In this document: positions 26,010 to 32,531 of the stretch, piece by piece
How the letters are laid out: each line of letters begins with the position of its first letter
Numbering within the stretch: position 1 is the first letter of the stretch
From: Rhizobium sp. Q54
Lineage (GTDB): Bacteria; Pseudomonadota; Alphaproteobacteria; UBA828
Length of the DNA: 49,106 nt
Direction: 5' to 3'
Assembly (NCBI GenBank): GCA_945892755.1
Contig: CAMDDO010000013.1
Location: 1-49,106, forward strand
Notes under the pieces: generated by a model
Databases searched by the model: none
What the model was told of the DNA's origin: nothing
What the model saw: the letters and a program-made list of their open reading frames with translations, nothing else
Made by a program: the position numbers and the translations under genes

Positions 26010-27863
26010 CTATTCCTGCTTGAGGAACGCCGCGCCCTGGTCGATCGCCTTCTGTTTGGCCGGGTCGATCCACCAGGTGTCGATGTAACCAAGGCCATAT
26101 TTAGGCGTTATCTTCGGGCGCGCGAAGATGTCCCAATAGGCGACACGAAAACTCCTGATGTGCCAGTTCGGGATCACATAATGGCCGAACAAAAGGGCCC
26201 GATCGAGCGCGCGCGTCGCGGTAATTAGAGCGGTGCGATCCTTGGCCGCGACGACATGCTCGATCAGCGCGTCGATCGCCTTGGACCTGATGCCGATGAT
26301 GTTGCGCGAGGCCGGCTCGTCGGCCGCCTTTGAACCCCAGAACTCGCGCTGCTCATTGCCGGGCGAGCGCGACTGGCCGAAGCTCTGCACCACCATGTCG
26401 AAATCGAAGTTTCGCAACCGATCGACATATTGCGAGGAATCGACCACGCGGAGCCGACAGTCGATGCCAAGCCGAGCCAGGCTTTTGGCGAACGGCCCGC
26501 CGATGCGCTCAAACGCCGAATCGACCAGCAGCAGCTCGAAGGTGATCGGCCGGCCGGTCGCCGGGTCGATGCGCTTCTTGTCCTTGACCACATAGCCGGC
26601 CGCATCGAGCAGCTCGCCCGCGCGTTTCAAATTGGCGCGGTTGTTGCCCGAGCCGTCGGTCGCGGGCGCCTTGAATTCCTTGGTGAACACCTCGGGCGGC
26701 AGATCGGCCCTGAGCGGCTCGAGCAGCACGAGCTCCTCGGCGCCCGGCAGGCCGGTCGCGGCCAGCTCGGAGTTCGAGAAATAGCTCTCGGTGCGAACAT
26801 AGGCGCCATAGAACAGGCTCTTGTTGGCCCATTCGAAGTCGAAGGCGTAGGACAAGGCCTCGCGCACGCGCGGATCGGCGAACAGCGGCTTGCGGCTATT
26901 GAACGCGAAGCCCTGCATGCCGGTCGGCAGCTCGTGCCGAATCTCCTCCTTGATGGTCAGTTTCTTGTCGAAGGTCGGGCCGACATATTGGGTCGCCCAT
27001 TGCTTGGACGAGTTCTCGTCGCGAAAATCATAGGCGTGCGCCTTGAAGGCCTCGAGCTCGACCGTGGGGTCGCGGAAATAGTCATAGTGGATCACGTCGT
27101 AATTGTAGCGCCCGCGCAGACGCGGCAGATTGGCGCCCCAATAGTCCTTGACGCGCTCATAGCTGATCGAGCGCCCGCCCTCGACCGCCGACACCCTGTA
27201 GGGCCCGCTGCCGAGCGGCGGCTCGAGCGTGGTCTCGTCGAATTTGCGCGTGGCGTAATAGGCCTTCGAAAGGATCGGCAATTGTCCGACGATCAGGGGC
27301 AGCTCGCGGTTCTCGCCGCCCGAGAAACTGAACTTCACCCGCCGCTCGCCCAAATCCTCGGCCTTGCTCACATTGCCGTAATAGATTCGATAGAACGGAT
27401 TGCCTTGGGTCTTCAGTGTTTCCATGGAAAAGATCACGTCGTCGACCGTGATCGGCGTGCCGTCGTGCCAGCGCGCTTCGGCGCGCAATGTGAAGATCGC
27501 CCAGGAGCGATCGGCCGGCACCTCGATCTTCTCCGCGACCAGGCCATATTCCGAGAACGCCTCGTCGCTCGAGCCCTCCATCAGCGTCTCGAAGCTTAGG
27601 CCGAGCCCATCGGCCGCGACGCCCTTGATTATATAGGGGTTCAGGCTGTCGAAGGTGCCGACCGCGGAGAGCCTGAGCGTGCCACCCTTGGGCGCGTCCG
27701 GGTTGACATAGTCAAAGCCCTGATCGGGCCCATAGTTGAGATCGCCATGCATGGCGATGCCATGGCTTGCATCGATGCCATCGTCGGCGTCGGCGAACGC
27801 CGGCCCAAGGCACAGCATTATCGAAGCAAGGCGCGCAACCCAGCAGCACCAGCATGATCGCAT
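26010..27863 (-). CDS. yejA: YejA-like periplasmic peptide-binding protein (copy nearest the permeases)
   Basis: Solute-binding protein of family 5, 617 aa from ATG 27863, with GAGGAG about 9 bases upstream; a TTG directly before it is less likely. A signal peptide ends near FADADDG. The mature protein shows YVNPDAPKGGTLRLSAVGTF, LRAEARWHDGTPITVDDVIF, PLIVGQLPILSKAYYATRKF, PPLGSGPYRV, LPRLRGRYNYDVIHYDYFRD, GMQGFAFNSRKPLFADPRVR and the C-terminal FGHYVIPNWHIRSFRVAYWD. These are YejA features. A near-complete paralogue lies 55 bases upstream on the same strand, so one transporter probably uses two binding proteins. Peptide specificity is not deducible. Confidence 0.93.
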   Translation of the reverse strand: MRSCWCCWVARLASIMLCLGPAFADADDGIDASHGIAMHGDLNYGPDQGFDYVNPDAPKGGTLRLSAVGTFDSLNPYIIKGVAADGLGLSFETLMEGSSDEAFSEYGLVAEKIEVPADRSWAIFTLRAEARWHDGTPITVDDVIFSMETLKTQGNPFYRIYYGNVSKAEDLGERRVKFSFSGGENRELPLIVGQLPILSKAYYATRKFDETTLEPPLGSGPYRVSAVEGGRSISYERVKDYWGANLPRLRGRYNYDVIHYDYFRDPTVELEAFKAHAYDFRDENSSKQWATQYVGPTFDKKLTIKEEIRHELPTGMQGFAFNSRKPLFADPRVREALSYAFDFEWANKSLFYGAYVRTESYFSNSELAATGLPGAEELVLLEPLRADLPPEVFTKEFKAPATDGSGNNRANLKRAGELLDAAGYVVKDKKRIDPATGRPITFELLLVDSAFERIGGPFAKSLARLGIDCRLRVVDSSQYVDRLRNFDFDMVVQSFGQSRSPGNEQREFWGSKAADEPASRNIIGIRSKAIDALIEHVVAAKDRTALITATRALDRALLFGHYVIPNWHIRSFRVAYWDIFARPKITPKYGLGYIDTWWIDPAKQKAIDQGAAFLKQE

Positions 27864-27918
27864 CAAGCGAGGCTCCTCTTGGCGCGGCGCGCATCGAGGC
27901 GCGAATTGCGGCCCTTGA

Positions 27919-29769
27919 TCAATCTATCGCTTTCCCGCGCGCGTTCAACGCCGCCTGCTGCGCCCCGTCAACCCACCAGGTATCAAGCCCGAGGCCGAAG
28001 GGCGGCGCGCTCGCGGGCCGGCTGAACTTGTTCCAATAGACCAGATCGTGCCGGCCCTTGTACCATTGCGGCACCATGTAGTGCCCGAACAGCAGCACCC
28101 GGTCGAGCGCCCGCGTCGCCGCGAGCAAGGCCGGGCGGTCCGCCGCTCCGAGCACGGCCTCGATCAGCGCGTCGACGACCGGATTCTTGATGCCGGCGAG
28201 ATTGAGGCTGCCGTCCTGGCCCGCCGCCGCCGAACCGAAATAGCTTCGAAGCTCGGCCCCCGGCGAGAGCGACTGGACATAGCGTTGGATGATGAAGTCG
28301 TAATCGAAGCTCTTCAGCCGGTTCTGATATTGCGCGGGGTCGACTAGCCGGAGCGCGATCACGAAGCCGAGCCGCTCCAGATTGCGCGCATAAGGCGCGA
28401 TGATCCGCTCGAACGCCGGCTCGTAATAGAGAAACTCGAGCGTGAACGGCTCACCGGTCGCGGGGTCGCGCAGCTTGCCCGCCTCGATCATGAGCCCGGC
28501 CTCGGTCAGCAATTTCTTTGCCGCGCGCAAATTCAGGCGCGCCTCGCCCGAGCCATCGGTCCGCGGCGGCACATAGGCCATGCTGAACAACTCAGGCGGC
28601 AATTTATCGCGATAGGGCTCGAGCAAAGCGAGCTCGGCAGACGCGGGCAGGCCGCGCGCGGCAAGCTCCGAATTCTCGAAATAGCTGGCCATGCGTTTGT
28701 ACTGGTCGTAGAACAGCGTCTTGTTGGTCCACTCGAAATCGAACGCAAGGTCGAGCGCCTGGCGCACGCGCCGATCGGCGAATTTGGCGCGCCGTGTGTT
28801 GATGAAGAAAGCCTGCACGCCGGATGGCGTATTGTCCGCGATGCTTTCCTTCACGATACGCCCGTCGGCGATCTCGGGAATGTTATAAGCGGTTGCCCAA
28901 GTTTTCGACGTGAATTCCTCGTGCCAGCCATACGCGCCCGACTTGAAGGCTTCGACCAGGATCGTGCGGTCGCGGTAATAATCATAGCGGATGATGTCGA
29001 AATTGTGCCGCCCCGCGCGCACCGGCAGCTCGGCCGCCCAGTAATCCGCCACGCGCTGATAGACGATGCTGCGCCCCGGATCGACCGCCTTGACCCGATA
29101 GGGCCCGCTGCCGAGCGGCGGCGTGACCGTCGTCTCGTTGAACTTATGGGCGCTGTAATAGGCCTTCGAAAGGATCGGCATGGCGCCGACGATCAAAGGC
29201 AACTTGCGGTTTTCGGTGGCGCGAAAGCGAAACACGACCTCACGCGGCGAGAGCGCCTCGGCGGTCTCGACATCGGCGTAGAGAATCTGGAAGGTCGGGT
29301 TGCCTTCCTTGAGCAGCGTCTCAAACGAGAACACCACGTCGTCGGCCGTGATCGCCGTGCCATCGTGGAACCGAGCCTCCGCGCGCAGGGCGAAACTGAC
29401 CGAGCGGCGATCGGCCGCCAAGGCCACGGTCTCGGCAATCAGGCCGTAAGCGGAATCGGGCTCGTCGAGCGACGGCTCGAGCAGAGCATCGAACAACAGC
29501 GTTTCGATATCCTGGGGCGGCACGCCCTTCAGGATGAAGGGATTGAGGCTGTCAAAGGTACCATCGAAACCGCGGCTGAACGTGCCGCCCTTGGGCGCGT
29601 CCGGCGCGGCATAATCGAAACACGTGAAGTCGGCGCCGTATTTGAGCGGGCCGAACAGCGAAAGGCCGTGACTAGGTTGCGGTTCGGCGGCCGCCACGGG
29701 GGCGAGCGCGCAAGCCAACGCGACGAGGCCGAGCCATAGCGCGCGGCGCACGGTGCGTAGCGGGCTCAT
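27919..29769 (-). CDS. YejA-like periplasmic peptide-binding protein (second, upstream copy)
   Basis: A 616-residue family 5 binding protein from ATG 29769; the longer in-frame start at 29859 would add a hydrophilic extension before the signal peptide. The signal peptide (WLGLVALACALAPVAAAEP) ends AAA-E. Its architecture matches the downstream copy segment by segment: FDYAAPDAPKGGTFSRGFDG, LRAEARFHDGTAITADDVVF, PLIVGAMPILSKAYYSAHKF, PPLGSGPYRV, RAGRHNFDIIRYDYYRDRTI, GVQAFFINTRRAKFADRRVR and FGHYMVPQWYKGRHDLVYWN. Divergence between the copies is large enough to suggest an old duplication with different ligands. It is the first gene of the transporter operon. Confidence 0.92.
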   Translation of the reverse strand: MSPLRTVRRALWLGLVALACALAPVAAAEPQPSHGLSLFGPLKYGADFTCFDYAAPDAPKGGTFSRGFDGTFDSLNPFILKGVPPQDIETLLFDALLEPSLDEPDSAYGLIAETVALAADRRSVSFALRAEARFHDGTAITADDVVFSFETLLKEGNPTFQILYADVETAEALSPREVVFRFRATENRKLPLIVGAMPILSKAYYSAHKFNETTVTPPLGSGPYRVKAVDPGRSIVYQRVADYWAAELPVRAGRHNFDIIRYDYYRDRTILVEAFKSGAYGWHEEFTSKTWATAYNIPEIADGRIVKESIADNTPSGVQAFFINTRRAKFADRRVRQALDLAFDFEWTNKTLFYDQYKRMASYFENSELAARGLPASAELALLEPYRDKLPPELFSMAYVPPRTDGSGEARLNLRAAKKLLTEAGLMIEAGKLRDPATGEPFTLEFLYYEPAFERIIAPYARNLERLGFVIALRLVDPAQYQNRLKSFDYDFIIQRYVQSLSPGAELRSYFGSAAAGQDGSLNLAGIKNPVVDALIEAVLGAADRPALLAATRALDRVLLFGHYMVPQWYKGRHDLVYWNKFSRPASAPPFGLGLDTWWVDGAQQAALNARGKAID

Positions 29770-29886
29770 CGCCGGCTCAGGCAAGCGAATCGAGGCTCGG
29801 GAGTGGAACACGTTTCGACTGGCGACTCGAAGCCATGGAACCACTTTGCCTCTAACCACCCGCGATGAAAAGTGACGGACCTTCTC
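29770..29886. other. Gap between the hybrid kinase and the transporter operon
   Basis: This gap should hold the promoter of the yejA-yejA-yejB-yejE-yejF operon (minus strand). I see no convincing -35/-10 pair and no terminator hairpin after the kinase gene, so read-through from the kinase is possible. Confidence 0.35.
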
Positions 29887-32436
29887 TCAGGCCGGATAAC
29901 GCGCGCCGAAGGCCTCGCGAACCGCGTCGAACTGGGCCCGGATTGGCATGGCGAGATCACGGACGACGTCGATCGCCTCGTCCTTGGCCGCGGCCTCGAC
30001 CGCGCGCGCCTGCGCCCAGAGCCGGCTCGCGCCGAGATTGCCCGAGGTCGATTTCAGATCGTGCGCCTCAGACCGCACCATCTCCAGATCGCCTCTGGCG
30101 ATGGCACGCTCGAACGCTTCGAGCCGCTCCACCGTCGTATCGAGATAGAGCTTGACCAGATCGATCGTGCCCGGCCGGCCGATGGCGCTTTCGAGTTGCT
30201 CGAGTACCACGCGGTCCAGCACCGGCGCGCCGGGATCGGCAACCGGGCTCGTGCCCGGCGCCGGCGCATCGGATTGGGGACGGCGGCGCAGCCAGCGCAG
30301 CAACGACGCCTTGAGGCGCTCGGGCTCGATCGGCTTCGGCACGTAGTCGTCCATGCCGGCGGCCCGATATTTGTCTTCGTCGCCGGCCATGACGTTGGCC
30401 GTCACGGCGATGATTGGCACGCGCCCAAGATCGCCGCCAAGCTGCCGAATCGCGCGCGTCGCGCTCGTGCCGTCCATGCCCGGCATATGCACGTCCATCA
30501 ATACGGCATCGATACCGCCCGCTCTGACCCGTTCGACCGCCTGCGCGCCGTCACCGACGATGATCACCTCGCAGCCCAGGCGCTCCACCAAGGCAGCAGC
30601 GAGTCGCTGGTTGACCGGGTGATCCTCGGCGACGAGCACCACCGGCACGCGTCCGATCGCCTCGCGCAGGCTATGGATGGTTATTAACGGCGCCGCCGCG
30701 GTTCCCCCTGCTTCCTTGCTGCTTTCTATCTCGCGCAGGCAGCGCAGCAGGAGTTCGGGATCGAGCGGCTCGGTCAAATAGGCGGCGAAGCCGAACTCCT
30801 TGCTGCGCGCGGCGTCGCCACGCAGTCCGCTTGTGACCAGCGCGATAAGCGACACATCCTGGAGCCGGCGGTCCGCTCGCACGAGTTCGGCAAAGGAGGC
30901 CGCCTCGTTCGACAGCGCATCGGCGACATAAAGAGCCGTCGAGGCCTGACCATGATGCTCCGCGCCTTCGCGCAGCCGCTCGAGCGCGGTATTCGGCGTA
31001 TCGGCGACCGCAACGCCAGCACCGGCGGCCTTGAGCGCCTCGATCAGGTTCTGCCTACGCTCTCCGCCGGCGCCGACCACCACGATCCGGGTGCGCGTCA
31101 AATCGGCGGCAAGCGCAGGCGCCTGGCTCCCCAGTGCCGGTTTGCAAGGCAAGGTAAACCAGAAGGTGCTGCCTTTGCCGGACCTGCTTTCGACGCCAAT
31201 CTTGCCGCCCATCATGGTGACGAGACGCTGGCAAATCGGCAGGCCGAGGCCGGCGTCACCTTTGGGACGGACCAGCGATGAATCGAGCGGTGCGAATTTG
31301 TCGAAAAGTCTGGGCTGTCTCTCTGCCGAGATGCCAACGCCGGTGTCCCGCACCTCGAAGCGCAGCATGGCGCCCGAGTCCGGACCCGCCTCGACACGCG
31401 ACACGCGCAAAATGACTTGGCCTTTTTCGGTGAAATTGAGCGCGTTGCCCAACAAGTTCAGCAGAACTTGCCTGAGCCGCACCGGATCGCCGATCTGATT
31501 CACCGGCACGTCGGGCTCGATCTGGGCCCGCAGCGGCAACCCCGACTCCAGGGCCTTTGCTTCGAGCTGATGGATGATCCCACCGACAACGCCGCCGAGA
31601 TCATAGGTGATGCGCTCGAGCGCGAGCTGACCCGCCTCCATTTTCGAGAAATCGAGCACATCGTTGATGACGGTGAGCAGCGCCTCGGCGGAATCCTTCG
31701 CGGCCTGAACACTGTCGCGCTGCCTCGGATCGAGCGCGCCTTCGAGCAGGAGCCAGAGACTGCCAAGCACGCCGTTCAACGGTGTGCGGACTTTCTGGCT
31801 GATCATGGTCAGGAACTCGACCTTGGCCGCCTTGGCCCGTTCGGCCTCGTCGCGCGCGAACGCCAGCGAATCGACCAAGCCGGCGACGTCGACCGTTTGC
31901 CCGCCTTGCTTGGCGTCGGTATCCTCGAGCGACGCGATCATCGCCTTTCGGGCAAGCTCGCGCTCGGCCGCCTCTGCGAGCGCATTCATCTCCGGGCTCA
32001 GGTCGTCAATCGCGACAAGCGCGCGCGGCCCCGCGACGTCACCACCGCTCAAGCCGGCTTCCAGCGGATCGATCGAGACGCGCAAATGGACTCGCGGCCG
32101 GCCTGCCAACGACAGCGCGATATCGGTGCTCAGCGCCTCGCCGCGTGCGATCGCCGCCACCATCGCTTCGGCGCGTTGGTCGCCCCCGAAGATCTCGTCG
32201 AGCGTCGCCGGCCGGCTGGATTCCGGCGCAAGCTTCAGCCGCGTGGCCAGCGTCGCAAGCGCATGATTGGCGTAGACCAAGCGCCCGGTCGCGTCGCAAA
32301 GCGCGATCGGCCGCCGAACCGCATCGAATGCCTGCCAGGCGCAGGGCTGAAGCCGCCCAGGCGCACCCTGCGGCGCGCGCGATGCTAAAATCGATCGCCT
32401 AGCCTCGTTGAGCGGCATGTCAATGGTTGCGCTCAC
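29887..32436 (-). CDS. Hybrid sensor kinase (PAS-DHp-ATPase-REC-REC-Hpt) lacking the phosphoacceptor His
   Basis: An 849-residue cytosolic hybrid kinase from GTG 32436, with AAGGA 8 bases upstream. Order: PAS-like (about 30-145, PIALCDATGRLVYANHALAT), coiled linker, DHp (about 207-275), ATPase (about 315-435; LLNLLGNALNFTEKG, DTGVGIS, GDAGLGLPICQRLV), receiver 1 (about 450-575), receiver 2 (about 600-720), Hpt (about 750-845). The H box reads FLTMISQKVRTPLNGVLG, where relatives have MSHEIRTPLN. Gln214 (codon CAG, 31795-31797) replaces the phosphorylated His. Receiver 1 lacks the acidic pair and has TEP in place of the conserved KP, so it is a pseudo-receiver. Receiver 2 is intact (Asp648 in LMDVHMPGMDG, Lys in PKPI). 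Hpt His792 is present in AHDLKSTSGNLGA. Signal and output are unknown. Confidence 0.92.
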   Translation of the reverse strand: MSATIDMPLNEARRSILASRAPQGAPGRLQPCAWQAFDAVRRPIALCDATGRLVYANHALATLATRLKLAPESSRPATLDEIFGGDQRAEAMVAAIARGEALSTDIALSLAGRPRVHLRVSIDPLEAGLSGGDVAGPRALVAIDDLSPEMNALAEAAERELARKAMIASLEDTDAKQGGQTVDVAGLVDSLAFARDEAERAKAAKVEFLTMISQKVRTPLNGVLGSLWLLLEGALDPRQRDSVQAAKDSAEALLTVINDVLDFSKMEAGQLALERITYDLGGVVGGIIHQLEAKALESGLPLRAQIEPDVPVNQIGDPVRLRQVLLNLLGNALNFTEKGQVILRVSRVEAGPDSGAMLRFEVRDTGVGISAERQPRLFDKFAPLDSSLVRPKGDAGLGLPICQRLVTMMGGKIGVESRSGKGSTFWFTLPCKPALGSQAPALAADLTRTRIVVVGAGGERRQNLIEALKAAGAGVAVADTPNTALERLREGAEHHGQASTALYVADALSNEAASFAELVRADRRLQDVSLIALVTSGLRGDAARSKEFGFAAYLTEPLDPELLLRCLREIESSKEAGGTAAAPLITIHSLREAIGRVPVVLVAEDHPVNQRLAAALVERLGCEVIIVGDGAQAVERVRAGGIDAVLMDVHMPGMDGTSATRAIRQLGGDLGRVPIIAVTANVMAGDEDKYRAAGMDDYVPKPIEPERLKASLLRWLRRRPQSDAPAPGTSPVADPGAPVLDRVVLEQLESAIGRPGTIDLVKLYLDTTVERLEAFERAIARGDLEMVRSEAHDLKSTSGNLGASRLWAQARAVEAAAKDEAIDVVRDLAMPIRAQFDAVREAFGARYPA

Positions 32437-32531
32437 AGTAATCCTTTCTGGGCTCTTAGAGCGCAGGCGCGACGGCGCCACGCTACATGACGCGGGTTAA
32501 TCGCGCGTAAAGCATAAACGCCGGTTGCCGC

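Follow-up and report, generated by a model that had tools for sequence, protein, structure and literature searches.

The locus studied here raises the question of what role may be left to a hybrid histidine kinase in which Gln occupies the position of the phosphoacceptor His. The gene is an open reading frame at 29887..32481 (-) in the window, the whole 49,106-nucleotide stretch of DNA from Rhizobium sp. Q54 (genome G000) that was analysed, and automatic annotation would label its product an ordinary hybrid histidine kinase. The protein is most likely a real, rare and lineage-restricted pseudo-histidine-kinase, in which a known trick is found in a new small gene family.

Gene structure and domain organization

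The product has 864 amino acids when translated from GTG 32481, or 849 from GTG 32436, the latter being the likely start, with AAAGGA located 5 bases upstream. A sequence-only reading of this DNA had described a full-length gene with a good ribosome site, and the open frame and this AAAGGA bear the description out. Residues are numbered by the 864-residue form, in which Gln229, Asp663 and His807 correspond to residues 214, 648 and 792 of the 849-residue form. The features of the gene are as follows.

29887..32481 (-), hybrid pseudo-histidine-kinase gene, PAS-DHp-CA-pseudoREC1-REC2-Hpt, likely start GTG 32436
32434..32447 (-), likely start GTG 32436-32434 with AAAGGA 32447-32442, as read from the sequence
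32062..32328 (-), PAS-like sensor domain, residues 52-140 (Pfam PAS_4, under the curated cut-off)
31630..31887 (-), DHp helices, residues 199-284 (HisKA 220-284)
31795..31797 (-), Gln229 at the phosphoacceptor-His position, codon CAG
31792..31794 (-), Lys230, codon AAA (Glu in 114/114 homologues)
31132..31629 (-), CA (ATPase) domain, residues 285-450
31435..31437 (-), Asn349, codon AAT, at the N-box Lys (Lys in 114/114 homologues)
31255..31257 (-), Asp409, codon GAC, at the second G2 Gly (Gly in 114/114 homologues)
30712..31104 (-), REC1 pseudo-receiver, a receiver fold lacking the acceptor Asp and the acidic pocket
30277..30645 (-), REC2, intact receiver (D620, D663, T694, K716)
30493..30495 (-), Asp663, the REC2 acceptor (Asp648 of 849 aa)
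29890..30213 (-), Hpt domain, four-helix fold
30061..30063 (-), His807 of Hpt (His792 of 849 aa)

The Pfam matches to HisKA (220-284, 54.7 bits), which spans the DHp with Gln229 in place, and to HATPase_c (331-446, 96.8 bits) were both over their cut-offs, and Response_reg (615-726) and Hpt (774-856) were also matched. An AlphaFold2 model (mean pLDDT 80, pTM 0.54) contained a PAS-like fold, two DHp helices, the CA fold, REC2 and a helical Hpt, with a receiver-like beta-alpha pattern at 464-590 for REC1, and confidence was low mainly at the N-terminus, around the ATP lid and G2 box (399-409) and in the linker that precedes Hpt. The closest NCBIfam model was BarA, for which the equivalog test failed with 382 bits against a curated cut-off of 890 bits. 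The protein shares with the BarA/GacS-type unorthodox kinases the domain order that includes Hpt, but differs from them in having neither a membrane sensor nor the phosphoacceptor His.

Loss of residues for autophosphorylation

To define the changed positions, we used a reference set of 114 reading frames of intact hybrid-kinase homologues, taken from fetched loci. The DHp motif of the window protein is ISQKVRTPLN, and its Gln (CAG 31797-31795) stands where all 114 homologues have His, as the sequence-only reading had supposed. The adjoining Lys230, Asn349 in the N box and Asp409 in the G2 box likewise replace residues that are invariant in the reference set, and the T/S that follows the second G2 Gly is Ala410. 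The earlier description of the ATPase as intact was correct for the G1 box and for the two Asn of the N box, which are kept, but not for the N-box Lys and the second G2 Gly, which are lost. In the C-terminal half, the REC1 acceptor Asp, which 92 of 100 aligned homologues possess, is missing in all four orthologues described below, whereas REC2 retains its acceptor Asp, its Thr and Lys and the acidic pocket in all four, and Hpt retains its His, interrupted copies included. The Asp and His that had been reported to remain in these two domains are present as Asp663 and His807. Taken together, these residues give good support to a kinase core that lacks what autophosphorylation needs, joined to a REC2 and an Hpt whose active residues are all in place. 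The earlier proposal that canonical autophosphorylation is impossible appears strongly supported for the DHp-CA core by the residues lost, and REC2-Hpt would be a working phosphorelay.

One might suspect that the His codon was misread in sequencing or assembly, given that CAG is one substitution away from CAT or CAC. However, an independent genome of a second species (G002) has CAG at the same site and several neighbouring invariant kinase positions are also changed in the window gene, indicating that Gln229 is not a one-base error, and this explanation is in practice refuted.

Gln at this position is rare. At the DNA level, a degenerate pattern encoding SQ-[E/D]-x-R-T-P-x-N-G had matches in only 2 of 385 genomes of the class, namely, the G002 orthologue and G183, whereas the His version of the pattern was matched in 28 of 58 genomes, with about 106 among the matches listed. 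When the Gln pattern was widened, the window gene was the sole match in 299 genomes of the phylum. The G183 match (C39:15465), the only other SQEIRTPLNG among the 385 class genomes, was discounted, because stops interrupt its CA region and the gene appears to be broken. In the literature library searched, no natural histidine kinase of the Gln type was found.

Orthologues and genomic locus

Among the genomes searched, orthologues were present only in three congeneric species (G000, G001 and G002) and in one sister-genus genome (G003); those of G001 and G002 were found by searches across family genomes, and the G003 copy by synteny. All four are flanked on one side by a NUDIX gene that adjoins ftsY and on the other by two tandem genes for family-5 solute-binding proteins. 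The neighbours are ftsY, the NUDIX gene and an oligopeptide ABC transporter, with neither a partner kinase nor a response regulator adjoining the gene. In four relatives (G005, G006, G010 and G018), nothing but 31-190 bases separates the aligned ends of the NUDIX gene and the solute-binding genes, and in G021 the spot appears, from its sequence, to be occupied by another gene, encoding a putative histidinol-phosphatase-like protein. Because the flanking genes abut or flank another gene in relatives, the kinase is a lineage-specific gene at this locus. The tandem solute-binding genes (window 26010-29859) are divergent, being about 51-53% identical, and lie upstream of oligopeptide permease genes; their synteny is kept across most of the family genomes examined.

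The alignment of orthologues at the DHp position, which the sequence-only reading had proposed as a check, showed that they do not all have His. The orthologues of G000 and G002 both have Gln (CAG) in an open frame, and the ATP pocket of the latter is more eroded, with N-box Asn to Ser and Lys to Gly, G1 Ile to Ala and an altered G2 box. The other two have His and are interrupted in the kinase part: the G001 orthologue (His codon CAT, canonical N and G2 boxes) by an in-frame TAG between DHp and CA, at which the other orthologues have AAG, and the G003 orthologue (canonical N box) by a frameshift in CA, between the N box and the G1 box. Provided that this stop and this frameshift are genuine, the kinase is compromised in every one of the four orthologues, although the lesions differ. 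All four orthologues retain Thr in the ExxT motif, and three retain its Glu, the exception being Lys230 of the window protein.

As TAGs were seen in two kinases of G001, we considered whether TAG is read as an amino acid there and rejected this, because TAG also ends ftsY and other long, apparently intact frames in that genome and is hence an ordinary stop. The second of these two hybrid kinases with TAGs is a multi-PAS protein (G001 C42:889-2877) related to G000 C2:59064, and its single in-frame TAG, located in the DHp, sits where the G000 counterpart has Gln.

Selection and evolutionary history

Identity between orthologues was 41-59% in DHp-CA and 51-71% in REC2, with the DHp (61-71%) being the best conserved part of the kinase core. 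The difference obtained by subtracting REC2 from DHp-CA identity was -0.10 to -0.22 in the orthologue pairs, compared with +0.045 on average across 6214 background pairs, and the orthologue pairs fell in the 0-0.2% tail of that background. This extreme position indicates that the kinase core diverges faster than REC2, which is the reverse of the usual order. Crude dN/dS values, which are comparative only because dS is near saturation, were 0.12-0.28 for REC2, 0.28-0.54 for CA and 0.51-0.67 for REC1, those of six neighbour genes being 0.08-0.24, and were below 1 in every domain of the pseudokinase. This pattern fits selection that has been relaxed for catalysis but persists for the receiver output. 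The gene as a whole evolves much faster than its neighbours (51-55% identity versus 72-93%), and the frame is open in two species, G000 and G002, that are only 51% identical in the pseudokinase.

The tree of the neighbour genes was ((G000,G001),G002), with support of 99/98, and the grouping of G000 with G002 was rejected for them (p 0.0096). In the tree of the kinase gene, these two were joined through DHp-CA only (94/91); the REC1-REC2-Hpt tree grouped neither G001 nor G002 with G000, and for the kinase gene the alternative to G000+G002 was not rejected (p 0.13-0.15). With four sequences, Gln may have arisen in parallel in two lineages, or it may be ancestral, in which case G001 would have had an unusual history.

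Comparison with known systems

RetS of Pseudomonas is likewise a DHp-CA-REC1-REC2 hybrid, with a core unable to autophosphorylate, as is predicted for the window protein, and with intact active residues in REC2, as in the window protein; its CA domain is degenerate, and its REC2 is phosphorylated by GacS (PMC5992135). As RetS REC2 accepts phosphate from another kinase, REC2 of the window protein may, by analogy, be fed in trans. The two proteins differ in that RetS keeps His and the HExxT motif and loses the G boxes, whereas the window protein has QKVRT and keeps the G1 box, so that its ATP-pocket changes are milder than those of RetS but the His itself is gone. RetS also has a periplasmic sensor and no Hpt, in contrast to the cytoplasmic PAS-like domain and Hpt of the window protein. 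RetS is a closer mechanistic model than DivL of Caulobacter, which the sequence-only reading had taken as its analogue and which now stands as one of several. DivL shares with the window protein a PAS input and a DHp-CA that is otherwise folded and has a residue other than His as phosphoacceptor, but it has Tyr, multiple PAS domains and neither REC nor Hpt, as opposed to Gln, one PAS-like domain and REC1-REC2-Hpt. The genome of the window species has its own DivL-like protein, at C1:62144, with Tyr (SYELRTPLN) at the phosphoacceptor position and no receiver or Hpt domain. The identification of the window gene as DivL was rejected on account of its architecture and of this separate gene, which, together with the window pseudokinase, makes two His-less HisKA proteins in the genome.

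The best solved-structure match was ShkA of Caulobacter (PDB 6qrj), co-linear over DHp-CA-pseudoREC1-REC2. The pseudo-REC1 of ShkA binds c-di-GMP, and a DDR motif lies in its linker (PMC7010744). In the 6qrj alignment, R324 and Y338 of the c-di-GMP pocket align with Arg and Tyr of the window protein, whereas the DDR motif and R344 are absent and KPLR aligns with EPLD. ShkA, moreover, is an active kinase, and the window protein carries Hpt besides. A frameshift pseudokinase of ChrS illustrates that losing CA can give a useful role via cross-talk with a paralogue (PMC9491836), but this Corynebacterium glutamicum protein arose in laboratory evolution and is not a hybrid kinase, unlike the window protein.

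Proposed mechanism and alternatives

We consider it fairly probable that the protein is a pseudo-histidine-kinase with a core incapable of autophosphorylation, in which PAS and DHp sense or scaffold and the REC2-Hpt relay is fed in trans. DHp-CA would be retained as a PAS-regulated dimerisation or docking module, and REC2 would be phosphorylated in trans, most likely by another hybrid or orphan kinase. REC2 could then exchange phosphate with Hpt, onward to a response regulator, or act as a sink, and signals from PAS and the pseudo-REC1 would set the uptake of phosphate from, or the inhibition of, the partner kinase. That no kinase or response-regulator gene adjoins the locus speaks against this reading. 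The nearest paralogue in the genome, C2:59064, is only a guess as the feeder kinase; G002 has no comparably strong match, and hence it cannot be the general partner.

The DHp might instead act in the manner of DivL, binding a phosphorylated response regulator and switching a partner kinase by contact, with REC2-Hpt being secondary. Non-His DivL does work by binding DivK~P with neither kinase nor phosphatase activity (PMC4211667), and no other part of the core is as well conserved as the DHp, but REC2 is conserved at least as well, a DivL-like function already exists at C1:62144, and the active residues of REC2 and Hpt, needless for a pure DivL mechanism, are kept in four species; we give this allosteric role a limited but real chance. 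That the gene is in decay, its open frame being a remnant on the way to a pseudogene after selection on the kinase was lost in the lineage, appears unlikely. Its confinement to two genera and rapid divergence agree with decay, and since only four orthologues were found in the genomes searched, two of them interrupted, the family as a whole may be turning slowly into pseudogenes. However, the frame has stayed open in two species at 49% divergence, no domain reaches a dN/dS of 1, REC2 is near the neighbour-gene level, and the REC2 and Hpt active residues persist even in interrupted copies.

A dedicated phosphatase or drain, in which the DHp (QxxxT) dephosphorylates REC2, so that phosphate returning from a response regulator through Hpt and REC2 is lost, seems rather improbable. 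The conserved Thr, with Glu in three orthologues, is in its favor, as is RetS, which has Thr-dependent transmitter phosphatase activity with a dead CA (PMC5992135); Tyr-type DivL, on the other hand, has no phosphatase activity (PMC4211667). Because the Glu of HExxT is Lys230 in the window species, the phosphatase-sink option of the sequence-only reading is less likely there. It is very unlikely, in our estimation, that this is a REC2-Hpt relay family in which the kinase was lost repeatedly and independently and Gln is possibly a CheZ-like helper draining REC2~P. Independent loss would count His to Gln twice on the species tree, the remaining two orthologues having a stop in one case and a frameshift in the other; under such a reading, a sensor would have been turned from a phosphate source into a phosphate sink.

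The protein would add to the few described pseudo-histidine-kinases a hybrid of the Gln type in which the REC2-Hpt output is complete. The four orthologues represent stages of kinase loss within two genera, from His kept, through Gln with a near-complete ATP pocket, to Gln with a broken pocket, and such stages make it possible to test whether sensor kinases become phosphate acceptors in multikinase networks. In G002, a free-standing receiver (C18:20411-20863 (-)) is about 63% identical to REC2 of the pseudokinase of that species and is possibly a partial duplicate of it.
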